Below, piece after piece: positions 24,479 through 50,105 of a DNA stretch of 64,000 bases; the first letter of the stretch is position 1, and every line of letters starts with the position of its first letter. Under the pieces are notes generated by a model, which saw nothing but the letters and a program-made list of their open reading frames with translations, searched no databases and was not told where the DNA came from. The DNA is from Chryseobacterium sp. (lineage in GTDB: Bacteria > Bacteroidota > Bacteroidia > Flavobacteriales > Weeksellaceae), in contig JAITUA010000007.1 in the NCBI GenBank assembly GCA_031286615.1, forward strand, positions 62,001 through 126,000, in the 5' to 3' direction. Both the position numbers and the translations under genes were made by a program.

Positions 24479-24483
24479 AATCT

Positions 24484-27832: not shown

Positions 27833-27843
27833 TTAAGATATAG

Positions 27844-28420: not shown

Positions 28421-28430
28421 ATAACCAGAT

Positions 28431-28823: not shown

Positions 28824-28869
28824 AATTTTAAACCTCTTTTTTGTAAATTGCGCTTTGATTTAGAAAGAA

Positions 28870-32118: not shown

Positions 32119-32670
32119 TTATGCATTTAAGTCAACAACCACGGTCTGAGCTCTCCTACACATCCACCTCCTCAATCTCCACACCGGCAAATACACAAAT
32201 ACCACAGACAAAATCCCAGCCAGCACACCCACCACCACAGCCATTGCCGTAGCATCCAGCTTATACTCTTTTGAGAAATTATACTGTCCTATAAAGAGTA
32301 GGGAGAGTACTAATGAACCTGTAATCAGGCCGTGTAAGATGCTTAGTTTGGTCATTAACTTTTTAATATTCAGCTGTTCGTCTACGGTAAACTCTATGGC
32401 TTCCTGGCTGGCGGCATCGGTTACTCTTTTGATGATATCAATGGTAAGGACTACCGGAAGGAAGATAGCCATCGGCAGGGTAAGGCGGGCCAGGTTTTGG
32501 GTTCCTGAGAAAAAATGCGTGTAGCCTAACTCTTTGAAACTGGCATACGCGATGATGAAATTAAAAAATACATTCGGGAGGACATAGTAAATTGTACGCT
32601 TGATGAGAAAGCGTTTCAGGGTGGTTTTCTTGATGGGTTTTGGCTTCGGAGGCTTTATTTTAAATTTCAT
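32119..32670 (-). CDS. Small multi-pass membrane protein, last gene of the PKS operon
   Basis: A 183-residue protein with a basic, proline-rich N-terminus (KPPKPKPIKKTTLKR) and about four hydrophobic segments (about 28-46, 62-80, 112-128, 142-162). No catalytic motif is evident. It overlaps the preceding acyltransferase gene by four bases (ATGA), so it belongs to the operon. A role as membrane anchor or in movement of the lipid product across the inner membrane is inferred from position. It is too small to be an MmpL-type exporter. Confidence 0.72.
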   Translation of the reverse strand: MKFKIKPPKPKPIKKTTLKRFLIKRTIYYVLPNVFFNFIIAYASFKELGYTHFFSGTQNLARLTLPMAIFLPVVLTIDIIKRVTDAASQEAIEFTVDEQLNIKKLMTKLSILHGLITGSLVLSLLFIGQYNFSKEYKLDATAMAVVVGVLAGILSVVFVYLPVWRLRRWMCRRAQTVVVDLNA

Positions 32671-33920
32671 AGAGAGGTGGTCAATAGCTCAATCGCTTTA
32701 TCTTTTATCAGATGGGCTTCTTCTTTGGGAAGAAAATTTTCATTGGACATGAAGGTGAAGTCCATTTGCTGGTTGTACGTACTGGTCACAAGGGTGGTTG
32801 AGTTCAGCCATGGGAAAGCCACGGTAGGACTGAACACGGTTTCCAGGTTGAAATTGGTGTAATCATTCGGGATATTCACCTTTCCCATATTGGATAGGGT
32901 CACATCATGTCCGCCTTCGCTGGATTTCAGCATCCTGATCATGCGGCTTACAATAGGATGCATACGTTCTCCCATCCAAAGGAGTTCACGGGCTTCAAGC
33001 TTACTGATTTTCTCAATAAGGTCTCTTTTGATCTGTTTGGCATTGTCCAGAACATCCTTGCTGTCTTTTTTGATGGAAAGCTCCACCGTTGGGGCAAAAG
33101 CAAACAAATGATCTTCTTTGATTTCCGGAATAAAATGACGTACATCTACAGGACTGATCACCTTACCCTTGGCACGGTCTCCCTGAATATCACGGAAAGC
33201 CTGCATCACCGAAGAGCATAGCAAAGCATGGACGGAGATTCCGTTGGCCTTACATTTTTCAGTAATCAGTTTCGTATCCTCCGGAGTCATTTTCCAGTGG
33301 ATCGCGTAGCTTTTTCCAAGGTTTCTCTTTTTGATTTTTCGCTGGATAGAAAAGAATATTCTGGCGAACAGCAGATAAAGACCGGCCTTATATTTTTTAA
33401 TCCCTGTATTAAAATCCGAAGGAAGAAAATCATCCACAGATTCAAAAGCAACATAAGGAATTAACGGTGAATAAGGATTGTCCAGCAAACTCAGAAGTTC
33501 ACGCATTAAAGTTACTCCGGTGGTTCCGTCTGAAATGCAGTGAGGCATGATCCAGAGGATTTCGGAAGTATCCTGTCCTTTCACCCATACTACTTCGGCC
33601 AGAGGCTTTTTGGGTTGGTCAAAGAGTTGAAACCATCCTTTTTCAGATTCTTTAAACCAGTCATCGTCCGTATTTCGTTCTACAATACGGAGTGGAATAG
33701 GTTCAATATCTCTCTGTCCCATAAAATAAGGATACCGCCCGACTTTATGATCAACGATAGCCCTCAGCATGGGATGTTTCTGCTGGATTTTGATCAGAGC
33801 TGTTTTAAAAGTTTCCTCAGAAACCTGTCCTTTGATCTTTGCGGTATAAATACAGTTTAAAGGCGTTTCAGGATCTACATACATGATCCTTTCCACCATC
33901 ATTAAAGGTCTTTTGATCAT
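32667..33920 (-). CDS. PapA-like acyltransferase (HxxxD condensation-type fold), second copy
   Basis: A 417-residue member of the condensation/PapA/WS-DGAT fold. The catalytic HCISDGTTG motif lies at about 126-134, with the usual upstream substrate-tunnel half and downstream DVRHFI and SNMGKVNIP segments. PapA proteins in mycobacteria esterify polyketide-derived acyl chains to alcohols or sugars. Here two paralogues lie behind a PKS and glycosyltransferases, so transfer of acyl groups onto the glycolipid is likely. It overlaps the genes on both sides by four bases. Acyl donor and acceptor are unknown. Confidence 0.85.
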   Translation of the reverse strand: MIKRPLMMVERIMYVDPETPLNCIYTAKIKGQVSEETFKTALIKIQQKHPMLRAIVDHKVGRYPYFMGQRDIEPIPLRIVERNTDDDWFKESEKGWFQLFDQPKKPLAEVVWVKGQDTSEILWIMPHCISDGTTGVTLMRELLSLLDNPYSPLIPYVAFESVDDFLPSDFNTGIKKYKAGLYLLFARIFFSIQRKIKKRNLGKSYAIHWKMTPEDTKLITEKCKANGISVHALLCSSVMQAFRDIQGDRAKGKVISPVDVRHFIPEIKEDHLFAFAPTVELSIKKDSKDVLDNAKQIKRDLIEKISKLEARELLWMGERMHPIVSRMIRMLKSSEGGHDVTLSNMGKVNIPNDYTNFNLETVFSPTVAFPWLNSTTLVTSTYNQQMDFTFMSNENFLPKEEAHLIKDKAIELLTTSL

Positions 33921-35188
33921 GATACTGCTTTCTGTTTAATTTGTGAATAAATTGTCCTCAGAACCTCATCACGGATGGCCGTTACTTCAGCATATGGTAT
34001 ATAGCCTTCGCTTCCCATGATGGAAAAATCCATTCTTCCACGATAGGTTGAAACCACAAGGGTAGTGGTATTTCCTAATGGACCAATGACCGATGGACTG
34101 AAGATGGTCTCTACCGAAAACTCTTTATATTCATGAGGAATCTGAAGAGGTCCCAGATTAGAAAACATACAGTCGTTGGAGGACTTTCCGTTCTTTAACA
34201 GTCTGGTGAAGCTTTTCAGGGCATCATGTCCGGATTCCATTACCATCATAGTGATGTACGGATCCAGTTTTGAGGCTTTTTGCTCCACCGATTTCTGCAT
34301 TGCACGGAGATTCTCTGTAAAGCTTAGCTTTTCATCAGAAGAAATCACGATCATCAGCCCGAAAGCGAAAATGTGGTCTTCTTTAATCTGCTTGGCAAAA
34401 CGTCTGATGTCTACGGGACAGGAAACTTTGTTGAAGGATTTTTTACCTCTCACTTTTTTAAATGCATGCAATAGCGCTACACTCAAAAATGTATTGACGG
34501 TCACTTCCTGAGATTTGCAATAAGCAATGACCTCCTGACTTGTAGCTTCATCCAGTTTACCATGGATCAGATAGTCATTCTGTCTTTCAACAGGTTTTTT
34601 GTTTACCGGAAGCCATTTGATCGCTGTTGCTGCAAGTCTTCCGATAAATTTAGCTTTCAGTTTCTGTTTTCTGCTGTTCAGAATATGGGCTGGAACTACA
34701 TCTTCAATACCTAATATTGGGTTTTCTATCCCGATATCGGTTGCAGGATTGTCCAGAACGATGAGAAACTCTTTTAAGAAAGCCATTGCAGAACCGCCAT
34801 CGCATAAGCAATGGTGAAATGCAAACAGCATATCGGAAACCTCTTCCCCTTTGATCCAGATAAACCGGATCAGGGGTAATTTTTCGTAATTAAAGGTGGT
34901 GTTCCATTCTTTCCTGGATTCTTCCTGCCACTGATCTTCACTCTGTCTGGTGATGATTCTTACAGGAATGGAAACAGGTTTTTCCGGAACATTGAACCAC
35001 GGAATATTTTTTTCATCATGGCTGATTAATGCTTTCAGCCAGGGGTGTTTATTTTGAATTTTGGCTAATGCCTGCTGGATCTCTTTTAATGTAAAAGTTC
35101 CTCTCAGTCTGAACGGAATGACCGCATTAAAAGGTTCTGTTCCATCTCCCAGTAACATGCGCTCACCAAATAGCAATCTTCTTTTCAT
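33917..35188 (-). CDS. PapA-like acyltransferase (HxxxD condensation-type fold), first copy
   Basis: A 423-residue paralogue of the preceding entry. The motif HHCLCDGGSAMAF (about 122-134) has the HxxxDG catalytic residues intact. CPVDIRRFA and SNLGPLQIP correspond to the second-half motifs. The two copies differ throughout, so they likely use different positions or donors. An 84-base gap separates this gene from the glycosyltransferase gene upstream, the largest gap inside the operon apart from the one between the PKS genes and the leader, so a secondary promoter is possible. Confidence 0.85.
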   Translation of the reverse strand: MKRRLLFGERMLLGDGTEPFNAVIPFRLRGTFTLKEIQQALAKIQNKHPWLKALISHDEKNIPWFNVPEKPVSIPVRIITRQSEDQWQEESRKEWNTTFNYEKLPLIRFIWIKGEEVSDMLFAFHHCLCDGGSAMAFLKEFLIVLDNPATDIGIENPILGIEDVVPAHILNSRKQKLKAKFIGRLAATAIKWLPVNKKPVERQNDYLIHGKLDEATSQEVIAYCKSQEVTVNTFLSVALLHAFKKVRGKKSFNKVSCPVDIRRFAKQIKEDHIFAFGLMIVISSDEKLSFTENLRAMQKSVEQKASKLDPYITMMVMESGHDALKSFTRLLKNGKSSNDCMFSNLGPLQIPHEYKEFSVETIFSPSVIGPLGNTTTLVVSTYRGRMDFSIMGSEGYIPYAEVTAIRDEVLRTIYSQIKQKAVS

Positions 35189-35272
35189 ATGCTGATATCT
35201 ATCTTTTTAAGGTCTTATGAAGCACCAGGTCTTCATCTGCCTTTGTGTTTACAAATCATTGCGATTTCATAA

Positions 35273-37675
35273 TTATACGGAAGCTAGTGTTGAATGTTCC
35301 TGTACAAAAGTTTCTAATAACTCTACTGCTTTATCATTACCGCCGGCAAGGGTAAATGTATTTCTGACTTCCTGAGCAGCGGTTCTGTATTTTGGATTTT
35401 CCAATAATTCAAAAACGGTTTCACGAAGGGCATCTACACGCAGTCTCTTGTATCGGATACTGATTCCGCAGCCTGCCTGCTCAATCAGTTTTGCAATATG
35501 GAAATGATCGTAAGCAATAGGTGTGATCAGCATCGGTAAACCGTTACGGAAAGTATCGTTTACAGTATTGAAACCACCGTGGCAGATTACCATGTCCATT
35601 TGCTGCATCACCGCTGACTGAGGAACAAAGCTGTTCACGATAAAATTGTCCGGCCATTCTTCAAAGATTTCAGGTGGAGTAGCGGCAATCACTGTTACCG
35701 GCTGGTCTTTGAACGCAGCGATAATTTTTTCAAAGAAAGCTTTTCTGATATCTACGAGCAGCGTTCCCAATGATACGAAAATCTTTGGAGTGGTAGACGC
35801 GTTTAATTTATCCCAGTCAAATGGAGCATCATTAGGACGCCCTTTTACCGGACCTACGAATTTCATATGAGACGGAACGGTTTCAAATCCGGCGAAAGCC
35901 TGTGAAGTGAACACCATATTCAGTTTGTGAGAATGGATATAAATTCCTTCCTCATGAATTCCTACTTCTTTTTGCAGGTCTTTGATGAGGTTTTGCTGCC
36001 ATTCCCAGATTTTTGGAGCACTTTTTTCCGTATCTCCCATCACATCCGGTGGAACCGGAGTTGTTGTTACACAAGGAATATTATGTTTGTGAGCGAAAAG
36101 AGCCCCTCCGAAAGTGATACAGTCGTTCACAATAACATCCGGCATCCAGCTTTCTGTCAGTCTGGTTAATCCCGGCATCATCATTTTAGCGAAAGGAACA
36201 TAGGTTTCTTCCAGTGCCAGTTTCATTACTTCGGGTCCGGAACAGGCCGGGCCGTCATCCTGTCTTTTTAAAATGCGGGCAATTTCCTCCTGATACGGAA
36301 CAAGATCTTCTTCAGGATAGAAATAAGAACCTCCTTCAGGAATGTGTTTGCTGTCTAAAGGGGTAATTCCGAACCATTTTACTTCATGTCCGCGGGCAAT
36401 TAAACTTGCTCCTACACTTAAAGTAGGGCTCACATGTCCGAAAAACGGAGGAACTACGAATAAAAACTTAGACGGTTTTTCAGGTTTTGAAGCCTTTGAT
36501 ATAGCCTGTTCCAATAGGTTCGCTGCTGTAGCTGCACCTCCGGCTTCTACAAAAGACTGTCCTACCTTCTGAGCTGCTTCACGGTAGCTTGGATTATTTA
36601 AAATCTTGTGTACTGCTTCTCTCAGGTGATTGGCTTTAAATCTGTTAAAATTAAGACGCTCACCCGCTTCTGTACGCACAACACGTCCTGCAACGTGTGA
36701 CTGGTCATAGGCAATCGGGATCACCACTAAAGGAATACCGTGTGATAGTGTTTCAGATACGGTATTGTGACCGCCATGGCATACCACGCCGTCAAGATGA
36801 GGTAACAGATCCAGCTGAGGAACCTGCTGATAGACCATAAAATTTTCCGGCCACTGCTCGAAAAGCTGTGGATCAGAAACCACTACAACGGTTAAATTTT
36901 CATCCTTAAAGGAATCAATGACCTTTTGGAAGAATGCTTTTTTATGATCATGATCGAAGGTAGTCCCAATGCTTACCAGGATCTTTTTATTGTCATTACT
37001 TTTTAATTTCTCCCAGTCAAACTCACATGAAACACGTCTTTCAGTAAGAACCGGACCTGTGAACTGATATTGAGAAGGGAGATCATCCATCTCACCAAAG
37101 AAATAGTTGGAAGTCAGAACAAGGGCCAACAGGTCTGAAGTCGCCAGAGAACGTTCTTCGTTGATCCCTAATTCTTTCTGCAGAGCCACAATCTGATTCA
37201 CTTCCCATTCGTGTACTTTAGGCAGCTCATTCATGATTTTAATGGCAGCCGGAGCGGTAACGGAAGTGGCATAAGGAATTCCCAGTGTTTTCGCTGCAAC
37301 AGGGGCTGCAAATAACTGATGATCCCCGATAACCAAATCAGGCTGATATGTTTTCAGTAAAGCAACAACTCCGTTATAGCAATGTCTGTTCAGTGGGATA
37401 AGAACCTCTTCGTAAAGGAACTTCACGCTGTCTATACCGTACACTACTTTCTTTGAAATAATATCGAGATATTGTTCACTTTCTTTTTTTTCTTCGTCGG
37501 TCTGATCGTACTGGATCAGTAATAATTTTCCTCCTTCAGGAAGTTTAGCCTCTAAAGTAGGGTCAAGGCTGATCCAGGCTACTTCATGTCCTCTTTCCAA
37601 AAGAGTAGCACCGATGCTTAAGGTAGGATTGACATGTCCTGTCAATGGTGGAACTATAAATGCAAATTTAGCCAT
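35273..37675 (-). CDS. Tandem-domain glycosyltransferase (two UGT/MGT-type GT1 domains)
   Basis: An 800-residue fusion of two GT-B glycosyltransferases of the macrolide/UGT type. Domain 1 (about 1-395) starts FIVPPLTGHVNPTLS, with the catalytic-type histidine at about 14, and ends with the donor motif CHGGHNTVSETLSHG. Domain 2 (about 398-790) repeats this with FVVPPFFGHVSPTLS and CHGGFNTVNDTFRNG. Both keep their histidine and donor-binding glycines, so both are probably active. Sequential addition of two sugars, or a sugar pair, to a lipid alcohol is a reasonable inference. It overlaps the hydrolase gene by 8 bases. Confidence 0.9.
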   Translation of the reverse strand: MAKFAFIVPPLTGHVNPTLSIGATLLERGHEVAWISLDPTLEAKLPEGGKLLLIQYDQTDEEKKESEQYLDIISKKVVYGIDSVKFLYEEVLIPLNRHCYNGVVALLKTYQPDLVIGDHQLFAAPVAAKTLGIPYATSVTAPAAIKIMNELPKVHEWEVNQIVALQKELGINEERSLATSDLLALVLTSNYFFGEMDDLPSQYQFTGPVLTERRVSCEFDWEKLKSNDNKKILVSIGTTFDHDHKKAFFQKVIDSFKDENLTVVVVSDPQLFEQWPENFMVYQQVPQLDLLPHLDGVVCHGGHNTVSETLSHGIPLVVIPIAYDQSHVAGRVVRTEAGERLNFNRFKANHLREAVHKILNNPSYREAAQKVGQSFVEAGGAATAANLLEQAISKASKPEKPSKFLFVVPPFFGHVSPTLSVGASLIARGHEVKWFGITPLDSKHIPEGGSYFYPEEDLVPYQEEIARILKRQDDGPACSGPEVMKLALEETYVPFAKMMMPGLTRLTESWMPDVIVNDCITFGGALFAHKHNIPCVTTTPVPPDVMGDTEKSAPKIWEWQQNLIKDLQKEVGIHEEGIYIHSHKLNMVFTSQAFAGFETVPSHMKFVGPVKGRPNDAPFDWDKLNASTTPKIFVSLGTLLVDIRKAFFEKIIAAFKDQPVTVIAATPPEIFEEWPDNFIVNSFVPQSAVMQQMDMVICHGGFNTVNDTFRNGLPMLITPIAYDHFHIAKLIEQAGCGISIRYKRLRVDALRETVFELLENPKYRTAAQEVRNTFTLAGGNDKAVELLETFVQEHSTLASV

Positions 37676-38450
37676 GGTTTTGTGTTAAAATTTTAGATAA
37701 AAATTGAGCGATCGTTTCTGCTATCAGATTCGGTTCCTGGATAGGAATATTGTGATCGCCCGGGATTAATTCAAGTTCAGATCCGCTGATTTGAGACTGA
37801 AGCCGCTCACCCGTAGGTCTGCAGTTGGAATCAGCGCCATAAAGCAATAGAGTAGGAGCCGCTAATCCAGTGAAACGTGCTTCACCAAGGAAATGTTTTT
37901 CTCTTATCATATCTGCTTTAATGGTAGTTTGATTAAACAGAAATTCATACATACGGTGGTTCTTTTCCATTTGTCTTTTCCCCATCTGTACTTTGGTGGT
38001 ATCTGTAAAGTTGGCTACATAGTGCTCAAGAAATTCTTTGCTGTATTCATCAATGATGTTACGGGCTTTTTCGTCCTGGGGATCCGGAGCTTCAGTCACT
38101 ACGAGCTGATTCACGCGGTCAGGATATTCTAAAGCTGTTTTCAGCGCAATAAGACCTCCGAAGCTATAGCCTACAAGGTGTACTTTTTCCAGTTGAAGGT
38201 GATCTATTAAACCTATTAAATCGGATGACATATTGTCAAGATCGTACCCATCCAAAAAGCGTTCACTCATACCGTGGCTTTTCAGATCGTACATCACCAC
38301 ATGGAAATGCTTGGCCAGCACAGGGGCAATATTAAAATAATAAATGGACAGGTTACTGAACATACCGTGGATGAGTACCACGGTTTGTTCGGCTCCTTTG
38401 TTGAGTTCCTGTATATGAACTTGTCTGTTATTGACAGTGATTATTGGCAT
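37668..38450 (-). CDS. Alpha/beta hydrolase of the PKS operon
   Basis: A 260-residue alpha/beta hydrolase without a signal peptide. HGMFSNLS near residue 28 is the oxyanion strand, VGYSFGGL holds the nucleophile serine at about 95, and LIPGDHNIPI holds the histidine near 236. It overlaps both the ACP gene (10 bases) and the glycosyltransferase gene (8 bases). In such operons, a stand-alone hydrolase often releases the finished chain from the ACP or removes stalled chains. Both options are open. Confidence 0.85.
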   Translation of the reverse strand: MPIITVNNRQVHIQELNKGAEQTVVLIHGMFSNLSIYYFNIAPVLAKHFHVVMYDLKSHGMSERFLDGYDLDNMSSDLIGLIDHLQLEKVHLVGYSFGGLIALKTALEYPDRVNQLVVTEAPDPQDEKARNIIDEYSKEFLEHYVANFTDTTKVQMGKRQMEKNHRMYEFLFNQTTIKADMIREKHFLGEARFTGLAAPTLLLYGADSNCRPTGERLQSQISGSELELIPGDHNIPIQEPNLIAETIAQFLSKILTQNHG

Positions 38451-38740
38451 TCGTAGATATAATTGATGATCATACTAAGGTCAAGATTAATAAGCTGGTC
38501 AAGATCCATAGAAGATAACCAACCTGTAAAGTCGATCTGATCGCCAAAATGCGCTTTGATCTTTTCAGAGAAAGAGACAATCTCGATGCTGTCCATTTCA
38601 AGATCTTTGGTGAATGAACTTTCAGGAGTAATGTCCATCTCTTCTACAAATTCAGCACCTATCACTTCAGTAATAAAACCTTTTAATAAAGTAAAAAGTT
38701 CTTCGTGGTTCATTTTTAATGTTGCGTTTACAGTGTCCAT
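38441..38740 (-). CDS. Discrete acyl carrier protein
   Basis: A 99-residue acyl carrier protein. The phosphopantetheine site is in DLEMDSIEIVSF, serine at about 51, with the acidic surface helices typical of ACPs (AEFVEEMDITPESSF). If translation starts at the overlapping ATG (38740), it shares 13 bases with the megasynthase end; an alternative ATG at 38713 gives a 90-residue protein. It is likely loaded by the PPTase domain fused to the second megasynthase. It may carry the chain to the hydrolase or the PapA-like enzymes, or supply the starter. Confidence 0.85.
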   Translation of the reverse strand: MDTVNATLKMNHEELFTLLKGFITEVIGAEFVEEMDITPESSFTKDLEMDSIEIVSFSEKIKAHFGDQIDFTGWLSSMDLDQLINLDLSMIINYIYECQ

Positions 38741-41700
38741 CCGATAATATAATTTTTATGTTTAATAGTTTTGATTTCAATATTGTTGATCCACAGGTGA
38801 TCGTCTTTTATCATTTCGACTTCGAAGGCTTTAGGATTTCCTTTCAGTCCTGTTCCCAGGAACTTTCCGTAAGCTTCCTTGGCTACCCAGAAACGGGTGG
38901 TCCATTCTGCCTGATCTCTGTCTTTTAATAATGCTAATTCGTTGTCGGTAAATACCATGTCGTAGAATCCGGCGCTGCGTTCTTCCATCAGTTCCATATC
39001 GATTCCTACAGATTTTCCATATCTCGCGATTCCCACGGCTTCTTTGCCTTTATGAGCCAATGAAATGTGAATATCTTCTGTAAAATCACTGATGAGGTAA
39101 GGTTTCCCCACTTCATCGGAACGGATTTCAAACGTAATAGGGAAGCAGGCTTGATTTTTTTCCTGACGGAGAAGATTTCTTACGGCATCTTTCACCGCCA
39201 CACGGCTTACCATCCAGTTTTTCTTTTTGTTCGGTAGTAACTGTTGGTGATGCTGTTTTTCCGTCTGGTTGAAGTACCTTTTCAGGATAAAATCCCATGA
39301 AGCGACTCTGGTGTAGGCCTGATGGAAAAAGAAAACTTCAGGAGCAATCTCTTCCGAAAGTCTGTTGTGCAGCGGTGACATGGAAACATTCCATAAAGCG
39401 GCATCAATCTCCAGTCTTCTGTTCTGCCAGCCCGTAATGGCACACCATACTTTTCCGTCTCTTTTCAGGATGATATCTGCGATGGCGAATTCATCATTAA
39501 GCTCGGTCAGCATACAGGTACATTCAAAAATACCTTCCTGATCATGCATATTACCGAAGAATTCAATATCTCTGATTTTTACCGGGAATGCAATACGGTC
39601 TTTTACCAAAGTAAGCTGAAGCCAAAGCCCGAATAACTGTCCGGCATTGTCGAGTAATGAACCTTTACCGCCGTTTCCTTTTATTTTTCCGATGATTCCT
39701 TTATCTCCAACGGCTGAAATTTCAGTAATTCCCTGGTATTTTTCTCCATGAAACATGTGCATGTCATAGATTTCTTCAGGTGTTCTTCCAATGGGTAAAA
39801 GATTACCGATGGAAAGATTGAAATCTGGTGTTGGAACAGGACCCGATTTTAAAACTACTTCTGCGTTGGCAAAGTTTTCAATGTCGAGATAAGCATGGTT
39901 TGATGAACGCCATTCTCCTTTTACCGTTTTTTCAAAAGGTTTGGCAACATTCATCCATTGGAATACGCTTACATTCATGATTTTATGAACCTGTGTTCCC
40001 GGAATTTCTGCCTCTGCAATTTCTGCCAGCTGTTCAAAAATCATGGTCATCGGAATTACCGGCTCCATATCAGCTACATGAGCCCATCCTTTAGGCTGTC
40101 TCAATAAACTGTGATCGATCAGGTAAGGATGACTTTCCAGGGTGACATACAAATCTTTTGAGAAGGTTGTACTTCTTGGTGCTTTTTGGGCAGCAGGAAC
40201 TACTGGTGAAGGTCTTTGGATTGTGATTTCCGGACGGTTTTGGAATAAAGTCAATACTTCTTCCTGCATACGGATCATATCGGCTACATTATCCTGGAAT
40301 GCCTGTACCAGCGGATGACCGCTTTTAGTGGCAATGGATGAAGCATTAGCGGTATATTGTTTTGGCGCATCAAAGGATTGGGCCAAAGCTTTCACTTCTT
40401 TAAAATTACGGATAATAGGAGAACCTAATTCCAGTTTAATGCCTTTTCCTGATACTCTTTTCGAGTGATTCTGAATCTCTAAAAAGTCAAGGGCAATTGT
40501 TTTTCCTTCTACGAATAGTGAAGCGACTACACGTTGTAACTGCGCTAATGCAGAACGGGTAGGAACGCTGGAAGCAATGGTACTGAAAGCTTTTCCTTTT
40601 AAGGTATCATCAATAAATCCGATTAGTCCTCCGGTACCCACCTGAATGAATACTCTTGCACCTTCTTCGTATAATTTATCAGTCAGTTCACGGAAACGAA
40701 CTGGCTGAACCAAATGCTCTGCACTCAGTTTTCTGATCGCTGCCTGATCTGCAGGATAAGGTTCTAATGTTGTGGCAGACCACAATGGGATTTTTGTCTG
40801 CTGGAACTGTGCTTTTTCCATTCCTGCAAGAATCACATCCAGTTTATCGGCGATAAAAGGAGAGTGGAATCCTGACTGGAACGGCAATACCTGATGAAAG
40901 ATCTGCTTTGCTTTTAACAAAGGAACCAATTCACCCAAAGCAGCATTGCTTGCACAAAGAATCACCTGATTAGGGCAGTTGTCATTAGATATATACAGGT
41001 TTGAAATTTCGTCAATAAAAGGTTTTATTGCTTCAATACCTGCTCCTATGGCAATGAATTTGGAATCTTTTAATTCAAAAGTTTCGGGATTCAGCACGTC
41101 AATTAAAGCTTTTACAGAATTTGCTTCTGCCAGCTCAGATGAATATCCTGCCAGCCATTCTCCTAAACTGTGCCCTGCATTCATATCTGGAATAATTCCC
41201 AGTTTTTTTAGTGAATTGTCAAGGATACTGCAATTGTTGAAGATATTTAAAGCGTCAGTTAAAAGACCTTCACCTTCTGTTTCAATAGGAGCTGTCAGTC
41301 TAAAATAACGGCTAACGGTATCTACTTCACCTTTTGCCAGACCGTCTAAGCCGGGAAATACAAAGGCTACTTTCCCTCCATCCTTTAATAATGGGGTAGA
41401 AGTGTACCAGATATCCTGTTTGTTTTTCCAGATGATATTCTTGGAAACAATTTTAATCGCTTTTTCTATTCTTGCCGTGGTTGGATTGAAGATGGCTACT
41501 CTGAAATCTCCTTCACCAATGGCTGTTTCATTATTTTGTAATGCTGAAAGCAGTGCTTCATGGGTAGGTCTGGCCAATATCAGTACGTGATCTTTTTTCG
41601 GCATATCATAGCCTTCCAAAACAACATGTGCATTGATTCCTCCAAATCCGAAAGCATTCACTGCTGCTACTTTTGGCAGTCCTGTTTTTGACCAGTTTTT

Positions 41701-42981
41701 GGCTTCCTGTACCGGTTCAAACCTAGTGTTCTGCATCTCTGCAGTTGGGTTCTCACAATATAATGTTGGCGGCAAAGTGTCATGGTGTAATGCCAGACAG
41801 GTTTTGATCAGTCCTGCAATTCCTGCAGCGGGCATAGCATGTCCTATATTGGATTTCACAGATCCGATTCCAGCTGCCGGAGTTTCTTCTTCTTTGCCAA
41901 AGAACTGTGCTAAGGTCTGAAGTTCTGTTTTATCTCCAAGCGGTGTTCCTGTGCCATGAGCTTCAAGATAACCGACTTTATTTTTATCTAAATCAGCATT
42001 GATCCAGGCTTGCTCCAATGCTTTCAGCTGACCTTTTACGGATGGGCTCATCACACTGGTTCCGGTACCATCACTGCTTACTCCTACACCTTTGATTACT
42101 GCATAAATTTTATCCTGATCGCGAACGGCATCTTCCAATCGTTTTAACACGACAAAGCCACAACCTTCACCGATCAGCAATCCGTCAGCATCCATACTGA
42201 AGGGTTTGATCTGCTGCTGACGAGACATTGCTCCCAATTGGGCAAAAATACTCCAGAAAGCAGCATTTTGTCCTGTGTGTACGCCTCCTGCAATCATAAT
42301 ATCGGAACGACCTCTCTGAAGTTCCTGTACAGCGTGATCTACAGCGATTAAAGCGGATGCACAAGCGGCATCTACCGTAAATGCAGCACCTCCCAAATTG
42401 AATCGGTTGGCGACAAGAGAGGCAACAAGATTGGGAATTAATCCCATCGCAGTATCTGCTGCAAAACGGCCTTTACGCTCCTGAAAAGCATGTTTTACCT
42501 TTTCAATATCGGAGGAAGAAACATGAGGCAACAATTCCTGTAGTAATGAGGAAATCTGTTCTCCGGTTCTTACAATTTCGATAGCGCGGGTAGCTCCAGG
42601 ACCGGTATAGTTTCCTTTACCGATGATGATTCCTGCTTTCTCAAGAGAAGTATTCTTTTGAAATATGCCTGCATCTTCCAGTGCTTTCTGTACCAGATCA
42701 AGAGTAAGCAAATGGTCAGGTTCTGTTCCTTCAACAGCCAGTGGCAAAATACCAAATGCTGTAGGATCGAATGTATAATCAGGGATAAACCCTCCACGCT
42801 GACAGTAAAAACGGTCAACGGGACTTGTGGCATCACTGAAATGAACCGGATCTATCCGATCAGCCGGAGCCAGCTCGGTAGAATCGACTTTATTGACAAT
42901 ATTCTGCCAAAAAGTGTTGGCATCCTGTGCCCCGGGAAAGACACAGGATAGGCCAATTACAGCAACATCTGTTTTTTTCAT
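38728..42981 (-). CDS. PUFA-synthase-like megasynthase 2: KS-AT-DH-PPTase
   Basis: A 1417-residue polyketide synthase. KS (about 5-460) has VDAACASAL with the active cysteine at about 206, EAHGTGT and NIGHAMP histidines. The AT-like domain (about 555-855) has GHSLGEW with serine near 603, but its oxyanion loop reads FPGLDG instead of the usual GQGxQ. A dehydratase hot-dog region (about 935-1230) has HPYLIDHSLL with the catalytic-type histidine at about 949. The C-terminus (about 1255-1417) is a phosphopantetheinyl transferase with GIDMEL and WVAKEAYGK. There is no ACP in this chain, so it must work with the ACPs of megasynthase 1 or the discrete one. The layout resembles PfaC plus PfaE of PUFA synthases. 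The built-in PPTase makes the system self-activating. Confidence 0.9.
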   Translation of the reverse strand: MKKTDVAVIGLSCVFPGAQDANTFWQNIVNKVDSTELAPADRIDPVHFSDATSPVDRFYCQRGGFIPDYTFDPTAFGILPLAVEGTEPDHLLTLDLVQKALEDAGIFQKNTSLEKAGIIIGKGNYTGPGATRAIEIVRTGEQISSLLQELLPHVSSSDIEKVKHAFQERKGRFAADTAMGLIPNLVASLVANRFNLGGAAFTVDAACASALIAVDHAVQELQRGRSDIMIAGGVHTGQNAAFWSIFAQLGAMSRQQQIKPFSMDADGLLIGEGCGFVVLKRLEDAVRDQDKIYAVIKGVGVSSDGTGTSVMSPSVKGQLKALEQAWINADLDKNKVGYLEAHGTGTPLGDKTELQTLAQFFGKEEETPAAGIGSVKSNIGHAMPAAGIAGLIKTCLALHHDTLPPTLYCENPTAEMQNTRFEPVQEAKNWSKTGLPKVAAVNAFGFGGINAHVVLEGYDMPKKDHVLILARPTHEALLSALQNNETAIGEGDFRVAIFNPTTARIEKAIKIVSKNIIWKNKQDIWYTSTPLLKDGGKVAFVFPGLDGLAKGEVDTVSRYFRLTAPIETEGEGLLTDALNIFNNCSILDNSLKKLGIIPDMNAGHSLGEWLAGYSSELAEANSVKALIDVLNPETFELKDSKFIAIGAGIEAIKPFIDEISNLYISNDNCPNQVILCASNAALGELVPLLKAKQIFHQVLPFQSGFHSPFIADKLDVILAGMEKAQFQQTKIPLWSATTLEPYPADQAAIRKLSAEHLVQPVRFRELTDKLYEEGARVFIQVGTGGLIGFIDDTLKGKAFSTIASSVPTRSALAQLQRVVASLFVEGKTIALDFLEIQNHSKRVSGKGIKLELGSPIIRNFKEVKALAQSFDAPKQYTANASSIATKSGHPLVQAFQDNVADMIRMQEEVLTLFQNRPEITIQRPSPVVPAAQKAPRSTTFSKDLYVTLESHPYLIDHSLLRQPKGWAHVADMEPVIPMTMIFEQLAEIAEAEIPGTQVHKIMNVSVFQWMNVAKPFEKTVKGEWRSSNHAYLDIENFANAEVVLKSGPVPTPDFNLSIGNLLPIGRTPEEIYDMHMFHGEKYQGITEISAVGDKGIIGKIKGNGGKGSLLDNAGQLFGLWLQLTLVKDRIAFPVKIRDIEFFGNMHDQEGIFECTCMLTELNDEFAIADIILKRDGKVWCAITGWQNRRLEIDAALWNVSMSPLHNRLSEEIAPEVFFFHQAYTRVASWDFILKRYFNQTEKQHHQQLLPNKKKNWMVSRVAVKDAVRNLLRQEKNQACFPITFEIRSDEVGKPYLISDFTEDIHISLAHKGKEAVGIARYGKSVGIDMELMEERSAGFYDMVFTDNELALLKDRDQAEWTTRFWVAKEAYGKFLGTGLKGNPKAFEVEMIKDDHLWINNIEIKTIKHKNYIIGWTL

Positions 42982-43000
42982 ACTTAGTTTATACAGAGTT

Positions 43001-46000
43001 TTACCAATTATTTCCTGACATGATCAGCACCTGGCTTTCAGTTCCGTATTTAATCTCATTAAGGAAGATTTCTTTCCCTTCATCCAATGGAATCATGGAA
43101 ATACCTCTGCGTTCGTATTCTGATTCAAGGGTGGAAGAAACCATTCCGGCTCCTTTCCATGGTCCCCAGTTGATAGAGATTACTTTTCCTTTTAATCTTT
43201 TATTTAAAGCATTTGCGTAATCATCCAGTACGCTGTTAGCAGCCGCATAATCTGTCTGACCTTTGTTACCATATACGGAAGCAATACTTGAGAATAATAC
43301 TACAAACTGACAGTCTGTACGAAGTTGTTCAGCCAATACACGAAGTGGTTTCACTTTGGTATCAAATACACGTCCGAAAGAGCTTGTTGTCTTTTGTTTG
43401 AATAATTTATCTTCTAAAAGACCTGCCCCGTGGATTACTCCGTCAAGACGGTCATATTTTTCATAGATATTGCTAATCAGCTTACTTAAACCTTCTTCGT
43501 CACAAAGATCTAATGATTGATAAACAATGGTATTTCCAAGTTCTTCCATATCACGGATGGTACGAAGAATCTGATTGTTTTTGAAAATCTTGGTGGTTTC
43601 TTTTTCTATTTCTGCAGGAGAAGTGAATTGTCCGGATCTGATCAGGAAACTTCTGATTTCTTCTTTGGTTTTCATTCCTTCAAAATCTTTTGCAGAAATT
43701 TCATTTCTTGGGTCTGCAGATCTTCCTACCAGAATATAAGTGCATGGATAAGCCTGGGACATGTGTTTTACCAATTCAGCAGTGATTCCCTGTGCTCCTC
43801 CAAGTACCAATACTACAGATTTCTGATCCAGCTGGATGTGGGCTTCATTTAAACTTGTTGACAATGGGGAAGGGATGATATCTACTTTGTGTCTCTGATC
43901 ATTTTTGTAAATAATTTCAGCAGGTTTATCGTTGGTAAGGATCTCCTTTAAGGTAATTTCCGCAATCTGATCCACTTCCTGAGGAGTACTCAAGCTGATG
44001 AGTCTGCAGGTTATGTTATCGAATTCTCTGGCCAGACTTTTGAAAAGTCCCGGATATCCCTGATGATGACGCAATACGCTTACATCAGTAATTTCCTGAA
44101 GGTGAGCCGGAATATCTGAGATCAGGTATACCCATTTTGCTTTATCAAAGTCCAGTTTTTTAATCAGATCTACGTGATCGATAATGCTTGGTTTATCGGC
44201 TGCTGAGAACAGGTCCAGCATAATTAATCCGTCAATGTCTGAAAGATCTTTTTCTGTATCTACTATTTCTACGATGGCTCCATGTTTTTCCAGAGCTTCT
44301 TTGATTGCAGAAGTTTGTTTGCTGTCATCTTGTGTAATGGCAAAACGTTTTCCCTGCAATACTTCTGTATTTTGAACTAAAGAAGCGTCAGTAGGCGTGA
44401 TATCAAAACGAAGACGTGAAAGTACATTTTGAGTTGGCTCTGCGGTGTTGTTTTCTTTTGTTTCCTGAGTAGTTTCGTTGGTCTCACCATTCATTTCGCT
44501 GATCCAGCTTGCCAAACCGCGAAGTGTTTTAATGGCAGCCAGTTTTTCCATGACATCATCTGCCTGCTCAAGGTTTTGACCAAAACCGATTTTGGTTTTA
44601 AGATCACCAATGATTTCCATACGTTTGATGGAGTCTATACTCAAATCTGCTTCCAGATCAAGATCAAGACCTAACATTTCTTTCGGATATCCTGTTTTTT
44701 CACTTACGATATTCAGAATAGCATTTTGAAGATCTTCAAGAGAGAATGCCGGTTGAGCTTGTGGTTTTGAAGCTGTTGATTCAACAGTAGATCCGTTTTT
44801 TTCAGGGGCAGCAGCTGTTTCAGCTCCTGAGAATTCAGTAAGCCATGAAACGAGACCGCTTAAGGTTTTTATTCCTGCTAGTTGCTCCATAACGGTATCT
44901 TCACTGGTGTTTCCGTTACCTAAAGTTCCCAGTTCGTTACGAAGTGTTCCGATGATTTCAACTCTTTTAATAGAATCAATACTTAAGTCAGCTTCCAGAT
45001 CCATTTCCATGCCCAGCATTTCCTGAGGATATCCTGTTTTGTCACTTACCACCTGTAGTAATAAGGATTTGATATCTCTTGATGGAGCTTGTTTCACAGC
45101 TGCAACGGCTACCGGTCTTTCCTGTTGAACAGGCTGAACGGGAATGGTAGATATCGGCTGGTGGACCGGAGTCTGTACTGGTGAATTGTATACAGGAGCA
45201 GGGAACGCCTGAGGATTCTGTCCCATAAAGGAAAGCATCACATCGCGTTGTGCCTGTATCATTAATTTCATACTGTTTAAATATTCCTGCAGCATACGTT
45301 CAGCAGTAGACTGAGCTTCAGTTGCAGGGGCCTGTGGATTATTAGTAAAATTGTTCATGGGAATAGGGTTTATGAGTGGTAAAGCACCATTAGATGGCAG
45401 ATTACCATGAGTTGGGTGGGCTGTCTGCCCGTTAACACGCCAGATGGCAGGGCTTTTCTTGTAAAGCTCAGGTTGGTTAAGGTCAATAACCTTAACGCTT
45501 CGGCCATCGAAAAGTTTATCAATATTGAAGCTTCGGCCTGTTCCTAAGTATTGTGCCAGCATACAAAGCAGGTGGCTGAATTTATTACGGCTGTTGTCTT
45601 CAACATATAAGGTCAGCTGATCTTTTTCAAGGCAGGATTTTGTCAGTCCGGTAAGAACTTTTCCTGGTCCTACTTCGATGAATATTCTTGCACCGTCATT
45701 ATACATTGCCTGAAGCTGTTCTACAAATCTTACAGGCTGTACCAGATGGTCAGTAAGTCTTTCTTTTATTTCTGATGGGTTCGCAGGATATACTTCTGCT
45801 GTGGTATTAGACCATACAGGAATCTGCATTTCCCCGAAAGGAACATTTTTCAACACCTCAGCATATAGATCCTTGGATTTTGCTAATAACGGACTGTGGA
45901 ATGCACATGCAACTTCAAGTTTTTTAGCAGAAATACCTTCCTGTTTAAGAACTTCCAGCAATTTATTGATCGCTTCGGTACTTCCGGCAATTACGCATTG

Positions 46001-49000
46001 TGTAGGAGCGTTAAAGTTCACAGGATAACATCCTTCTACTTTAGCAATGATCGGTTGTAAACGTTCCGCAGTAGCACTTGCTGCCAGCATTGAACCCGGA
46101 TCTCCACCTTCCACTGAGTCTAAAATAGACTGAGCTCTCTGAACACTTAAATTAACAAGTTGATCTTCTCCAAATACTCCAGCAAAGCATAAAGCCGGAA
46201 TTTCACCGTAGCTATGACCTGCCAGCATATCAGGAATAATACCTAATGATTCTAAGAATTTAGCCAATGCAAGGTCTACAATTCCTAAAAGAGGTTGTGC
46301 TAAATGGGTATCTTTAATGGTTTCTTTTTGTTGTTTTAAATCAGCTTCATTAAAGGTTTTTGATGGGAAAACTACTTTTTCAAGTTCCGGATATTCATCA
46401 ATAATCTTACGCATTGCCGGGAAAACTACAAATAAGTCACGAGCCATATTGATTCTCTGACTGCCTTGTCCAGGGAAGGTGAAAGCTACTTTACCTTCTT
46501 TTTTATTCACAGTAAACGTATCTTTTGTCTCAATCCCTAGCAATACCAGTTCGAGCTTCATCATCAGGTCTTCAGCGGTGTCTGCAACAATACTGAACTG
46601 GATTGGCTTTTCTGAACTGATGCTTAAACTGTAAGCGATATCTTTTAATGGAATACCATCGTTAATTTCTAATAAAGCCTTGATCTGACTTGATTGTCCT
46701 TTTGCTTCTTCATAAGTGTCTCCACGGAAAACAAACAATTCTGAAGGCCATGACTGCATTGCAATTGAATTATCCTGCTTAGGATGATTGGCAATTACGG
46801 TATGGAAGTTTGTTCCTCCAAATCCGAAAGCACTGATTCCTGCATAACGGTTTTTCTCGGTCCATAATCCACTTTCTGCATGGAATGAGAATGGACTGGT
46901 TTCTGCATTATAATACGCATTAGGCTGCTGAAGGTGAAGGGTAGGTGGTTTTACACCATGATAAACGGCAAGGGAAGCCTTGATTAATCCTGCTAATCCT
47001 GCCGCACATTTTGTATGCCCGATCTGGGTTTTCACAGAACCTAAATGAGTCTGCCCAGGTAATGCCCCTGAACGGCTGAATAAATTCGTTAATGCACTTA
47101 ATTCAGTTTTGTCACCCACTACAGTTCCTGTACCGTGAGCTTCCACTAAACCTACAGAAGCAGCACTGATGCCCGCTTGAGAATAAGCACGTTCTAATGC
47201 TCTTACCTGGCCAATCTGTCTTGGAGCAGTCAATCCCAGCGCTTTACCGTCACTGGATCCTCCAACTCCTTTAATCACCGAATAAATACGGTCACCATCA
47301 CGTACCGCGTCTTCATATCTTTTTAAGACAAGGATCGCAATACCTTCTCCTAGGGCGATACCGTCTGCTTCACCGTCAAAAGTAGCACATCTTCCTTTTC
47401 TGGAAAGAGCGTGAGTACTAGAGAACATCAGGTAATCGTTGATTCCGTTGTGTAAATCTGCTCCACCTGCAAGAACCATATCGGATTTTCCTAATACAAG
47501 TTCCTGGCAAGCCAGATCAATAGCAGCTAATGAAGAAGCACAAGCTGCGTCTACGGTAAAGTTTCTACCGCCAAGATCCAGTCGGTTTGTAATCCTGCCT
47601 GCAATAACATTGGCAAGAATACCCGGGAATGAGTCTTCTGTGGTATGTGGAAAGGCTTCTTTTACTTCTTCATGAAGTTCTCCGAAAACCTGTTTATAAT
47701 ATCCTCTGAAACTATAGCTGTTGGCAAGGTCATTACCTCCTTCAGCCCCTATAATAACAGAAATGTTTTCTCTGTTGATATATTTTTCACCATATCCTGC
47801 ATCTTCCATTGCACGCTTGGCAACCAGTAAAGTTAATAGCTGTGTAGGTTCAATGGCAGCAAGAGATTGTGGTGGAATTCCGAATGCCAATGGATCGAAA
47901 TCAATTTTAGGAATAAATCCTCCCCATTTGGAATGAGATACATCGGGTCCGTCAGAATCAGGATGGTAATACAATTCTTTATTCCATCTTTCATCCGGTA
48001 CTTCGGTAACGCTGTCTTTCCCTAAAATGATATTTCTCCAGTATTCATCAAGGTTTTTAGCTCCCGGGAAAATACATCCCATTCCTACGATAGCGATGTC
48101 AAGAGGTTTTTCTGTTGAAACCGGTTCTTCCGGTAATGCTGCATCCTGAATATGCTCGTAATTGTCTACAACACTTTGATGAAGAGCTGCTAATGAGATC
48201 ACCCGATTGTGCATTGTAGCTACCTGACCGATCATGTACATGCCTAAGTCTAGTTGATCATCTTTAGGAATGCTGACAAGTTTATCACCTTGACGCTCTA
48301 TACCTTTAGCCGCAATTCTTAAACGGCCTACATTTAATTTTTCAAGCTGTTCCCATACTTGTTTTTTATCCATTCCGGCAGCAAGAAGCTTTGCTTTTTC
48401 TGTATTGAAATGGTGGGCAAATGCTGTATTTAAACAACGGGTCTCATGTCCCGGAGTTGTTTCCAATAAGACAGTATCTTTTGCCTGCATGGCCTGAGAC
48501 TGGAATTCTTCCTGAATAGCTCCCGTCTGTACTGCTTCATGGGTATAAAGGTAAGCAGTACCCATCAGTACTCCAAGTTTCACTCCTCTTGCAGCTAATG
48601 GAGCGGCCATGATGGAAACAAACGCTGTTGAAAATGCGTTATGAATTCCTCCTGCAAAAAAGACACTGATATTTTCCGGGTTTTCTTCTTTTAAGATACG
48701 TTCAATTTGTTTTTCCCAAAGAACCATACTTGAAAGCGGACCTACGTGACCTCCGCACTCACGTCCTTCAAAAATGAAGTTTCTGGCACCTTCTTTCAGG
48801 AAAATATCCAGAAGGGCAGGGGAAGGAACGTGTAAGAATGATTTTATTCCCGCTTTTTCAAATACTTTAGCCTGAGCCGGTCTTCCGCCTGCGATCAAAA
48901 CTACAGGAGGTTTGGCTTCTAATATATAAGAGGTCTGTTCTTCTCTTAATTCCTGTGGAGCGAATCCCAGAATACCTACACCCCATGTTTTTTCACCAGC

Positions 49001-50026
49001 CAGTTTTTTGGTATCCATTACCAGAGACTTTGCAGATTCTCCTTTCAATAAGGATAAGGCAACAAAAGGTAAAGCTCCGGCTTCTGCTACAGCATTGGCA
49101 AATAGCGGAACATCACTTACACGGGTCATCGGACCTTGAGCGATAGGATAATGAAGACCCAGTTCCTGAGCTAAAGAGTTTTTTTTATCAATTACTTTAA
49201 GTGCTTTTGCCTGCTTCAGGTGCCCATACATAGCTTCTTTAAATCCGAAAACAAGTTTTTTCAGGGTTTTGAAATCTTCATACAGGTCTATTGCCAGCGA
49301 AATGTCTTGTCCCATAGGGATATAACATGTACTAAGGTCCAGACCGGTGAAGTACTGTTTCAGGTCTTCAGCAGTTGTGTTTTCAGGTAATACCGGAGAA
49401 TTGGGTCTTACCAGTACACGATGGTTAGCAATCACCTTAGTTTCTGTACCATTCAGTTTTGAGCATACTTCTTTCAAGTCCTTAGGAACTGAACTTTCAG
49501 GGAACAGGGCCAGCTGGCTGTCCAGTACAACTCCTGTTGCTCCCAATGCTTTTGATGCCGCTGCAGTATGGAGACCTATTCCTCCCTGTACCCACACCGG
49601 AATGTTCTGAATTTCTTTGATCACACGCTGAAATAATACAAACGTGGATTCATAGCCTACCCATCCACCTGCTTCATTTCCTTTGATAATGATTCCTTCT
49701 GCTCCCGATTGTTCAGCTTGTCTGGCTTCTTCCAGGCTGCTTACCTGATAAACGGCTGGCAGATTGGAAGGCTTCGACATTCCGAACGGAAGGATAGCAA
49801 ACCTTACTTTTTCAGGAATTTGAAGAGCGGTAAAATTGTCATTAGAAAAATAAATACCATATGATGGTACGTCTATCTGATCAAGTTGATGTAACGCTTC
49901 CTGGGCAGTCGCTAATTCATTTCCTAAACTTAGAACGGGAAATGCACCCGCCTGATGCAGTCTAGGAATAAGGTTAACGTCCGGCTTTTCAAAAGGCGTT
50001 AGTCCAATAATGGTTAAGTTCTTCAT
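43001..50026 (-). CDS. PUFA-synthase-like megasynthase 1: ER-like TIM barrels-KS-AT-ACP-ACP-KR
   Basis: A protein of about 2340 residues from the start at 50026; an in-frame ATG at 50062 would add 12 residues. Residues are counted from 50062. Two PfaD/nitronate-monooxygenase-like barrels come first (about 20-290 and 300-630; the second has YPIAQGPMTRVSD and ECGGHVGPLSS). KS starts near 654 with the active cysteine (DAACASSL) near 839. AT has GQGSQ near 1197 and GHSYGE near 1282. Two ACPs follow at about 1694 and 1808 (DLSIDSIKR in both), then a KR with LGGAQGIT near 2084 and YAAAN near 2272. This resembles PfaA with PfaD fused in front. Iterative synthesis of a partly reduced or polyunsaturated chain is likely. 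The gap to megasynthase 2 is 19 bases. Confidence 0.92.
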   Translation of the reverse strand: MKNLTIIGLTPFEKPDVNLIPRLHQAGAFPVLSLGNELATAQEALHQLDQIDVPSYGIYFSNDNFTALQIPEKVRFAILPFGMSKPSNLPAVYQVSSLEEARQAEQSGAEGIIIKGNEAGGWVGYESTFVLFQRVIKEIQNIPVWVQGGIGLHTAAASKALGATGVVLDSQLALFPESSVPKDLKEVCSKLNGTETKVIANHRVLVRPNSPVLPENTTAEDLKQYFTGLDLSTCYIPMGQDISLAIDLYEDFKTLKKLVFGFKEAMYGHLKQAKALKVIDKKNSLAQELGLHYPIAQGPMTRVSDVPLFANAVAEAGALPFVALSLLKGESAKSLVMDTKKLAGEKTWGVGILGFAPQELREEQTSYILEAKPPVVLIAGGRPAQAKVFEKAGIKSFLHVPSPALLDIFLKEGARNFIFEGRECGGHVGPLSSMVLWEKQIERILKEENPENISVFFAGGIHNAFSTAFVSIMAAPLAARGVKLGVLMGTAYLYTHEAVQTGAIQEEFQSQAMQAKDTVLLETTPGHETRCLNTAFAHHFNTEKAKLLAAGMDKKQVWEQLEKLNVGRLRIAAKGIERQGDKLVSIPKDDQLDLGMYMIGQVATMHNRVISLAALHQSVVDNYEHIQDAALPEEPVSTEKPLDIAIVGMGCIFPGAKNLDEYWRNIILGKDSVTEVPDERWNKELYYHPDSDGPDVSHSKWGGFIPKIDFDPLAFGIPPQSLAAIEPTQLLTLLVAKRAMEDAGYGEKYINRENISVIIGAEGGNDLANSYSFRGYYKQVFGELHEEVKEAFPHTTEDSFPGILANVIAGRITNRLDLGGRNFTVDAACASSLAAIDLACQELVLGKSDMVLAGGADLHNGINDYLMFSSTHALSRKGRCATFDGEADGIALGEGIAILVLKRYEDAVRDGDRIYSVIKGVGGSSDGKALGLTAPRQIGQVRALERAYSQAGISAASVGLVEAHGTGTVVGDKTELSALTNLFSRSGALPGQTHLGSVKTQIGHTKCAAGLAGLIKASLAVYHGVKPPTLHLQQPNAYYNAETSPFSFHAESGLWTEKNRYAGISAFGFGGTNFHTVIANHPKQDNSIAMQSWPSELFVFRGDTYEEAKGQSSQIKALLEINDGIPLKDIAYSLSISSEKPIQFSIVADTAEDLMMKLELVLLGIETKDTFTVNKKEGKVAFTFPGQGSQRINMARDLFVVFPAMRKIIDEYPELEKVVFPSKTFNEADLKQQKETIKDTHLAQPLLGIVDLALAKFLESLGIIPDMLAGHSYGEIPALCFAGVFGEDQLVNLSVQRAQSILDSVEGGDPGSMLAASATAERLQPIIAKVEGCYPVNFNAPTQCVIAGSTEAINKLLEVLKQEGISAKKLEVACAFHSPLLAKSKDLYAEVLKNVPFGEMQIPVWSNTTAEVYPANPSEIKERLTDHLVQPVRFVEQLQAMYNDGARIFIEVGPGKVLTGLTKSCLEKDQLTLYVEDNSRNKFSHLLCMLAQYLGTGRSFNIDKLFDGRSVKVIDLNQPELYKKSPAIWRVNGQTAHPTHGNLPSNGALPLINPIPMNNFTNNPQAPATEAQSTAERMLQEYLNSMKLMIQAQRDVMLSFMGQNPQAFPAPVYNSPVQTPVHQPISTIPVQPVQQERPVAVAAVKQAPSRDIKSLLLQVVSDKTGYPQEMLGMEMDLEADLSIDSIKRVEIIGTLRNELGTLGNGNTSEDTVMEQLAGIKTLSGLVSWLTEFSGAETAAAPEKNGSTVESTASKPQAQPAFSLEDLQNAILNIVSEKTGYPKEMLGLDLDLEADLSIDSIKRMEIIGDLKTKIGFGQNLEQADDVMEKLAAIKTLRGLASWISEMNGETNETTQETKENNTAEPTQNVLSRLRFDITPTDASLVQNTEVLQGKRFAITQDDSKQTSAIKEALEKHGAIVEIVDTEKDLSDIDGLIMLDLFSAADKPSIIDHVDLIKKLDFDKAKWVYLISDIPAHLQEITDVSVLRHHQGYPGLFKSLAREFDNITCRLISLSTPQEVDQIAEITLKEILTNDKPAEIIYKNDQRHKVDIIPSPLSTSLNEAHIQLDQKSVVLVLGGAQGITAELVKHMSQAYPCTYILVGRSADPRNEISAKDFEGMKTKEEIRSFLIRSGQFTSPAEIEKETTKIFKNNQILRTIRDMEELGNTIVYQSLDLCDEEGLSKLISNIYEKYDRLDGVIHGAGLLEDKLFKQKTTSSFGRVFDTKVKPLRVLAEQLRTDCQFVVLFSSIASVYGNKGQTDYAAANSVLDDYANALNKRLKGKVISINWGPWKGAGMVSSTLESEYERRGISMIPLDEGKEIFLNEIKYGTESQVLIMSGNNW

Positions 50027-50105
50027 GGCGTGATAATTATTGAATGATAGCAAGAGTTTCATAACAAAATGCAGAGCCTTTCGGTAATAAGGCGATTGCT
50101 TTTTG

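Follow-up and report, generated by a model that had tools for sequence, protein, structure and literature searches.

Pfa-like secondary-lipid synthases are the described systems closest to the operon reported here. In the accessible part of Shulse and Allen 2011 (PMC3098273), Type N is listed for Chryseobacterium gleum and Chitinophaga pinensis with no product given, and Type F (hgl) is described as Pfa-like but free of DH/I domains, its chain ending up in a glycolipid. In 2023, region 2.2 of Chryseobacterium herbae (495,527-554,653) appeared in the accessible part of PMC10459008 under the antiSMASH label hglE-KS, T1PKS, terpene. The locus that we compared from a C. herbae strain (L031) occupies 512548-536777 of contig 2, which places it within region 2.2 if that name means contig 2.

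Searches of an open-access library, judged largely from their listings, showed no product of the operon, and to this extent the initial annotation, which knew of no described product, still stands; against it, the core is probably the Type N synthase of 2011 and the C. herbae locus had been flagged by antiSMASH in 2023. The terms Chryseobacterium, PUFA and hglE are absent from the accessible part of Brinkmann et al. 2022 (PMC9248904), as are Chryseobacterium and Bacteroid- from that of PMC13291983. The core having probably been catalogued already, what is added here is the eight-gene definition, the corrections to the domains, the history of the PapA and GT genes and a sign of transfer.

A conserved, patchily distributed unit of eight genes

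The window, the whole stretch of 64,000 nucleotides that was analyzed, comes from a Chryseobacterium sp. genome of 4.88 Mb. It contains eight minus-strand genes arranged as a tight unit from about 50026 down to 32119 (Table 1), and the parts first proposed for positions 32119-50062 are all present: two megasynthases, an ACP, a hydrolase, a double GT, two PapA-like acyltransferases and a membrane protein. Neighboring genes overlap by 4-13 bases at five of the seven junctions, and gaps of 19 and 84 bases separate them at the remaining two. Elsewhere in this genome neither P0005 nor the PapA_C family has a match.

Table 1. Genes of the operon and its putative promoter (window positions).
Feature	Position	Strand	Content
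P0001, megasynthase 1	43001..50062, likely true start 50026	-	Decayed NPD1-NPD2-KS-AT-ACP-ACP-KR, 2353 aa
P0002, megasynthase 2	38728..42981	-	KS-AT-predicted PKS-type DH (double hotdog)-phosphopantetheinyl transferase, 1417 aa
P0003, discrete acyl carrier protein	38441..38740	-	PP-binding Pfam, 99 aa
P0004, alpha/beta hydrolase	37668..38450	-	Abhydrolase_1 and Thioesterase Pfam, 260 aa
P0005, tandem GT1 (MGT-type) glycosyltransferase	35273..37675	-	TIGR01426, 800 aa
P0006, PapA/AATase-like O-acyltransferase 1	33917..35188	-	Condensation and AATase Pfam, HHxxxDG, 423 aa
P0007, PapA-like O-acyltransferase 2	32667..33920	-	PapA_C Pfam, PHxxxDG, 417 aa
P0008, small membrane protein, last gene of unit	32119..32670	-	183 aa
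Putative operon promoter, Bacteroidota type	50540..50572	-	TTTG-N21-TATATTTG

All eight genes occur in the same order in 64 of 68 named loci, which were drawn from the best 80 of 113 matches and belong to four genera; among those 80, the closest named relatives by the second synthase are Chryseobacterium strains with 97% identity. The script returned 61 ordered loci, to which L019, L029 and L048 were added, as they failed its order test only, each having an extra hydrolase-like match elsewhere, and are in order on the locus maps. L072 was counted as complete although a contig end cuts its first synthase. The exceptions are a locus at a contig end (L021), one with the first synthase in two frames (L024), one in which no ACP frame was found (L066) and one with broken frames (L076). 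From the second synthase onward, the seven genes keep their order in 20 of 20 distant Sphingobacteriales loci, and the first synthase is complete or nearly so in all 11 of the distant upstream stretches fetched (L131-L141). Because content and order are conserved across the named and distant loci while the flanking genes vary, the arrangement is beyond chance, and the operon is a real, conserved, patchily distributed biosynthetic unit. Values of dN/dS against 12 relatives lie between 0.00 and 0.17 where computable, saturated or missing values being left out, and therefore indicate purifying selection on the operon genes; values for the PapA genes mostly lie towards the upper end and those for the ACP towards the lower.

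Within Chryseobacterium, 89 of 148 genomes, that of the window included, have a best P0002 match at E = 0. The second synthase gene is in pieces or carries stops in four Chryseobacterium genomes (G063, G104, G118, G127), through either decay or sequencing error. In a sample of 300 Sphingobacteriales genomes, 59 match at E <= 1e-100; judged by coordinates, four of these are the ones that carry the named loci L045, L056, L057 and L063. At E <= 1e-150 the tandem GT has matches in 11 of 246 genomes from the same order as the window (own genome included). Phylum-wide, P0002 matches 4 of 395 sampled genomes at E <= 1e-80 and the NPD pair 4 of 395 at E <= 1e-40; the two samples overlap, three of the four NPD-pair genomes being P0002 genomes by coordinates.

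In a tree of the second synthase made by a quick method, the copy of Flavobacterium seoulense (L037) branches inside Chryseobacterium with starred support, a placement that we regard as a sign of transfer between families. In the PapA tree described below, its PapA2 also lies inside the Chryseobacterium copies and its PapA1 lies outside them; since the second synthase and PapA2 group with Chryseobacterium and PapA1 does not, the F. seoulense operon may be a mosaic.

A glutaminase gene (50949-51977) lies upstream of the operon, and past it, at 52437-57326, the window encodes a 1629-aa protein that has a PKD domain and ends in a Por-type secretion tail. On its downstream side the operon is followed by a low-GC restriction-modification stretch (23228-31401, about 31% GC), which holds an McrBC component, an AAA protein, a Vsr endonuclease, a C5 cytosine methylase and, in two more genes, weak NgoFVII-type C-terminal matches. 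P0009 (31409-31957) was considered as a ninth member and rejected, since the 68 loci yielded no homologue of it at E <= 1e-5. Base composition does not support a recent foreign origin: the operon genes have 35-44% GC vs 37-43% in eight other genes of the window, and the low-GC genes of the window are those of the restriction stretch, not of the operon.

Domains of the two synthases

P0001 carries, by Pfam, two NMO domains, KS, AT, two PP-binding domains and KR, and its score of 1048.9 bits against the NCBIfam PfaA model TIGR02813 exceeds the cut-off of 1010.1, so that the PfaA-like order KS-AT-tandem ACP-KR is present. The KS cysteine (DAACAS), first His and last His motifs are each retained in 76 of 76 full-length homologues, as are the AT, KR and ACP motifs. 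The two N-terminal NPD domains differ. NPD2 was matched by FabK structures and has the GGH histidine in 76/76 homologues at the aligned column; with these two features it qualifies as an FMN enoyl reductase of the FabK/PfaD type, a name that covers both families. According to the accessible part of PMC13311796, this histidine has been proposed to be catalytic in FabK and PfaD. NPD1 (P0001 residues 13-290; window 49193-50026) has it in one homologue only (L021) and lacks it in the other 75 of 76, where Leu, Lys, Gln, Trp, Ser, Asn or Arg takes its place. It is a conserved pseudo-enoyl-reductase, and since the catalytic His described for FabK/PfaD is missing, NPD1 is probably structural rather than catalytic.

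P0002 has Pfam matches to KS, AT and ACPS, the last marking a C-terminal PPTase, and the stretch between AT and PPTase has no Pfam match. An AlphaFold2 model of this stretch, of modest confidence (mean pLDDT 67.5, pTM 0.67), was matched by Foldseek to polyketide-synthase dehydratases with a best E of 7.3e-12, and all 50 fold matches listed were of PKS type; neither the candidate catalytic His nor the candidate Asp varies among 29 sequences. A PKS-type double-hotdog DH is thus supported by prediction. The best match of the stretch to solved structures by sequence was lysostaphin at E 0.079, which we took as chance. The active Cys (DAACAS) and first His of the KS are retained in 87/87 full-length homologues, as is the AT serine motif; the pattern used for the last His motif recovered it from 79/87 and missed it in the other eight.

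The first proposal had described both megasynthases as PfaA/PfaC-like. For P0001 this agrees with the PfaA cut-off; a PfaC likeness is not supported for P0002, with its retained KS Cys and PKS-type DH model. The parts that it named are there, and it had made no mention of the N-terminal NPD/FabK pair of P0001, the PPTase of P0002 or the double-hotdog DH. Its suggestion of PUFA-synthase-like chemistry is not supported, as Pfam detects no FabA-like domain in either synthase at E <= 0.001 and the DH model is of PKS type; on the same grounds we rejected an assignment as a PUFA synthase.

The start of P0001 is more likely at 50026 than at 50062, because 10 of the 11 distant copies fetched align from residue 13 or residue 10 (the other from residue 5). 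Upstream of it, the motif TTTG-N21-TATATTTG, which we take to be the Bacteroidota-type promoter consensus, was found in 38 of 62 upstream regions, after 15 further loci in which the start pattern was not found had been dropped. When the window's 900 bases were shuffled 200 times by mononucleotide, the motif turned up in 2.5% of the shuffles. A scan for sigma-70 promoters stayed at chance level (11 seen vs 9.3 expected). About 240 bases upstream of the P0001 start there is a 62-base copy of the beginning of the gene (50206-50267 vs 49968-50029; 82% identical, E 7e-14). The copy begins a 52-codon frame, and a similar start was found by pattern in 20 of the 62 upstream regions; either a decaying duplication or a leader peptide would fit it.

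Tailoring genes and the proposed pathway

The discrete ACP (P0003) just exceeds the PP-binding cut-off (21.2 bits vs 20.8), and its DSIE motif is retained in 86/86 full-length homologues. P0004, with GYSFGG in 87/88 homologues and GDH in 86/88, is likely a thioesterase or a transacylase. P0005 matches the TIGR01426 MGT family in two stretches (389.3 bits, cut-off 260), its halves being 38% identical to each other; the N-terminal His of each half, within GH[VI]NP and GH[VI]SP, is found in 65/65 full-length fused rows. A single gene encodes the GT pair in the loci of Flavobacterium and Sphingobacterium, in L130 and in those Chryseobacterium loci whose frames are intact, whereas the three Pedobacter loci (L056, L057, L063) and 19 of 20 distant loci have two adjacent genes instead.

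The PapA likeness claimed for the two acyltransferases is upheld by matches to solved structures: the best solved structure for both is the PapA5-type 8s6l (E 3.3e-16 for P0006, 2.5e-19 for P0007), and P0007 exceeds the PapA_C cut-off (37.3 bits vs 30), though both are far below the cut-off of 396 bits for curated PapA5 (PRK09294; 25.7 and 35.5 bits). Their kinship with PapA is distant. HHxxxDG is present in 91/92 PapA1 (P0006) homologues, extra copies counted, and PHxxxDG, in which the second His of the pair alone is retained, in 84/86 PapA2 (P0007) homologues. A tree of 61 rows from 27 loci and the window separates PapA1 from PapA2 with 100/100 support. A third PapA gene is present in L043, L044 and L053 and in L111 and L112; because the extra copies of these two groups sit in different places on the PapA1 side, with some weak forks, it was probably gained separately in two lineages.

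P0008 has no NCBIfam match, and its single Pfam match falls below the cut-off. Its place is conserved, the membrane protein always being the last gene of complete units. The model has four long helices and low confidence (pLDDT 66.1), and a fold search with it gave no match at E <= 0.001; a function read from the fold was therefore discarded.

In our best reading the product is an acylated, glycosylated, reduced-polyketide lipid, and we put the probability of the full pathway, from iterative synthases through a GT1 pair and a PapA pair to an O-acylated glycolipid, at about 0.5. Domain content, conserved synteny, retained catalytic motifs and purifying selection support it, along with the DH fold by prediction. 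The two synthases would act as one iterative complex, extending a malonyl-derived chain on the tandem ACPs, with the carriers activated by the built-in PPTase of P0002. KR, the PKS-type DH and NPD2, the single intact FMN enoyl reductase, would reduce the chain, and some keto-reduced positions would escape dehydration, leaving a hydroxy-acyl chain that is long and mostly saturated; such a chain is favored over a PUFA by the full reducing set and the absence of a FabA-like isomerase. The hydrolase and the discrete ACP may release the chain or pass it on. Since GT1 enzymes need an acceptor, the hydroxylated chain is the simplest one in the unit, and the GT1 pair would add one sugar each, the first onto a chain hydroxyl, before the PapA pair O-acylates the glycoside and P0008 helps to anchor or move the product. 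MGT-type GT1 enzymes glycosylate macrolides as well, which counts against a glycolipid; so do the lack of a product in the searches above, the distant PapA kinship, the modest confidence of the DH model, a membrane protein with no assigned function and the eight P0002 homologues in which the last KS His motif was missed. The annotation had envisaged an acyl chain bearing one or two sugars and acylated; domains and synteny agree with a reduced chain decorated by GT1 and PapA enzymes, and we infer the presence of one or two sugars, as well as their nature, the chain length, saturation, malonyl use, order of steps and place in the cell envelope. The conserved unit has no thioester reductase, acyl-CoA ligase, NDP-sugar gene, exporter or regulator, and loading, release and export are therefore unaccounted for.

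The main alternative to a chain serving as aglycone follows the logic of mycobacterial sulfolipids and LOS. Here the GT pair would build sugars on a separate acceptor and the PapAs would move synthase chains onto them from the discrete ACP, the polyketide being an acyl group. The PapA5-type structure matches of both acyltransferases, the extra ACP with its invariant serine and a PapA number of two or three among loci, as the number of acyl groups might vary, are what one would expect of it. However, the GTs are of the MGT type, which act mostly on small hydroxylated acceptors, and no gene of the unit supplies a separate acceptor; we consider this scheme unlikely, at roughly one chance in four.

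A diffusible glycosylated polyketide, antibiotic-like or a macrolactone, for which the hydrolase would act as a cyclase or in release, seems to us a good deal less probable than a membrane lipid. The macrolide-type GT family and the oleandomycin GT structures among the solved-structure matches of P0005 suit such a compound, as do the patchy distribution and the one sign of transfer between families; a PfaA-type synthase with a full reducing set and a unit that always ends in a membrane protein do not, nor does the conserved unit contain an exporter, a regulator or, in the named and distant loci compared, a resistance gene. Synthesis of a polyunsaturated fatty acid that is glycosylated later is very improbable, for although P0001 passes the PfaA cut-off and has FabK/PfaD-type domains, neither synthase has a FabA-like domain at E <= 0.001, the DH model matches PKS double-hotdog dehydratases and the second KS keeps its active Cys.

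Returning to the acylated glycolipid, we offer with some reserve a broader reading: the operon could define a new class of glycolipid in the Gram-negative envelope, one that moves horizontally and is made of a reduced polyketide, two sugars and two to three acyl groups by a mycobacterial-like PKS-GT-PapA logic. It is equally tentative that the PapA number sets the acylation pattern and that the class extends over more than half of the Chryseobacterium species sampled (89/148) and roughly one in five of the Sphingobacteriales sampled (59/300). If the pathway is right, many Chryseobacterium and Sphingobacteriales species share a glycolipid, and the Type N synthase of 2011 would probably gain a product. 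The constant set of eight genes points a chemist to the deletions worth making and to the compounds to seek. The operon joins PfaA-type with PapA-type chemistry in Bacteroidota, and each step can be tested in environmental strains; Pedobacter psychrotolerans and Flavobacterium seoulense are among the carriers of the unit.

Comparison with known systems

The core of the operon is probably the Type N synthase, in the accessible part of PMC3098273 named for Chryseobacterium gleum: of 11 KS matches in this genome, only the two in the operon are long (frames of 2376 and 1431 aa), and from these we infer the identity. C. gleum itself is not among the named loci, which come from the best 80 of 113 matches. 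The operon differs in that the Type N description, in the same part of that paper, names no GT, PapA, hydrolase or membrane-protein genes.

With the PUFA synthase PfaABCDE the operon shares the KS-AT-ACPn-KR order, a PfaD-like ER and a PPTase. Unlike it, the operon shows no FabA-like DH/I and no chain-length factor lacking the active Cys, DAACAS being present in 76/76 P0001 and 87/87 P0002 homologues.

The heterocyst glycolipid (hgl) synthase, as far as the sources cited above describe it, is likewise Pfa-like and without DH/I, with a glycolipid as the end product, as proposed for the operon; the C. herbae locus has received the antiSMASH label hglE-KS. The operon differs from it in having fused NPD domains and a PPTase, a predicted PKS-type DH, tandem GT1, two PapAs and a hydrolase. 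The hgl system has a thioester reductase, which the operon does not. In the sophorolipid pathway of yeasts, a hydroxy fatty acid undergoes two GT1 sugar transfers and O-acylation, and an esterase takes part; the operon differs in its dedicated iterative synthase and PapA-type acyltransferases and has no P450.

The mycobacterial systems for PDIM/PGL, LOS and SL-1 combine PKS and PapA proteins with GT1 enzymes and a small membrane protein, as the operon does, and a PapA5-type structure is the best match of its acyltransferases. In contrast to them, the operon has no FadD or MmpL gene, is built around a PfaA-type synthase and resides in a Bacteroidota host.
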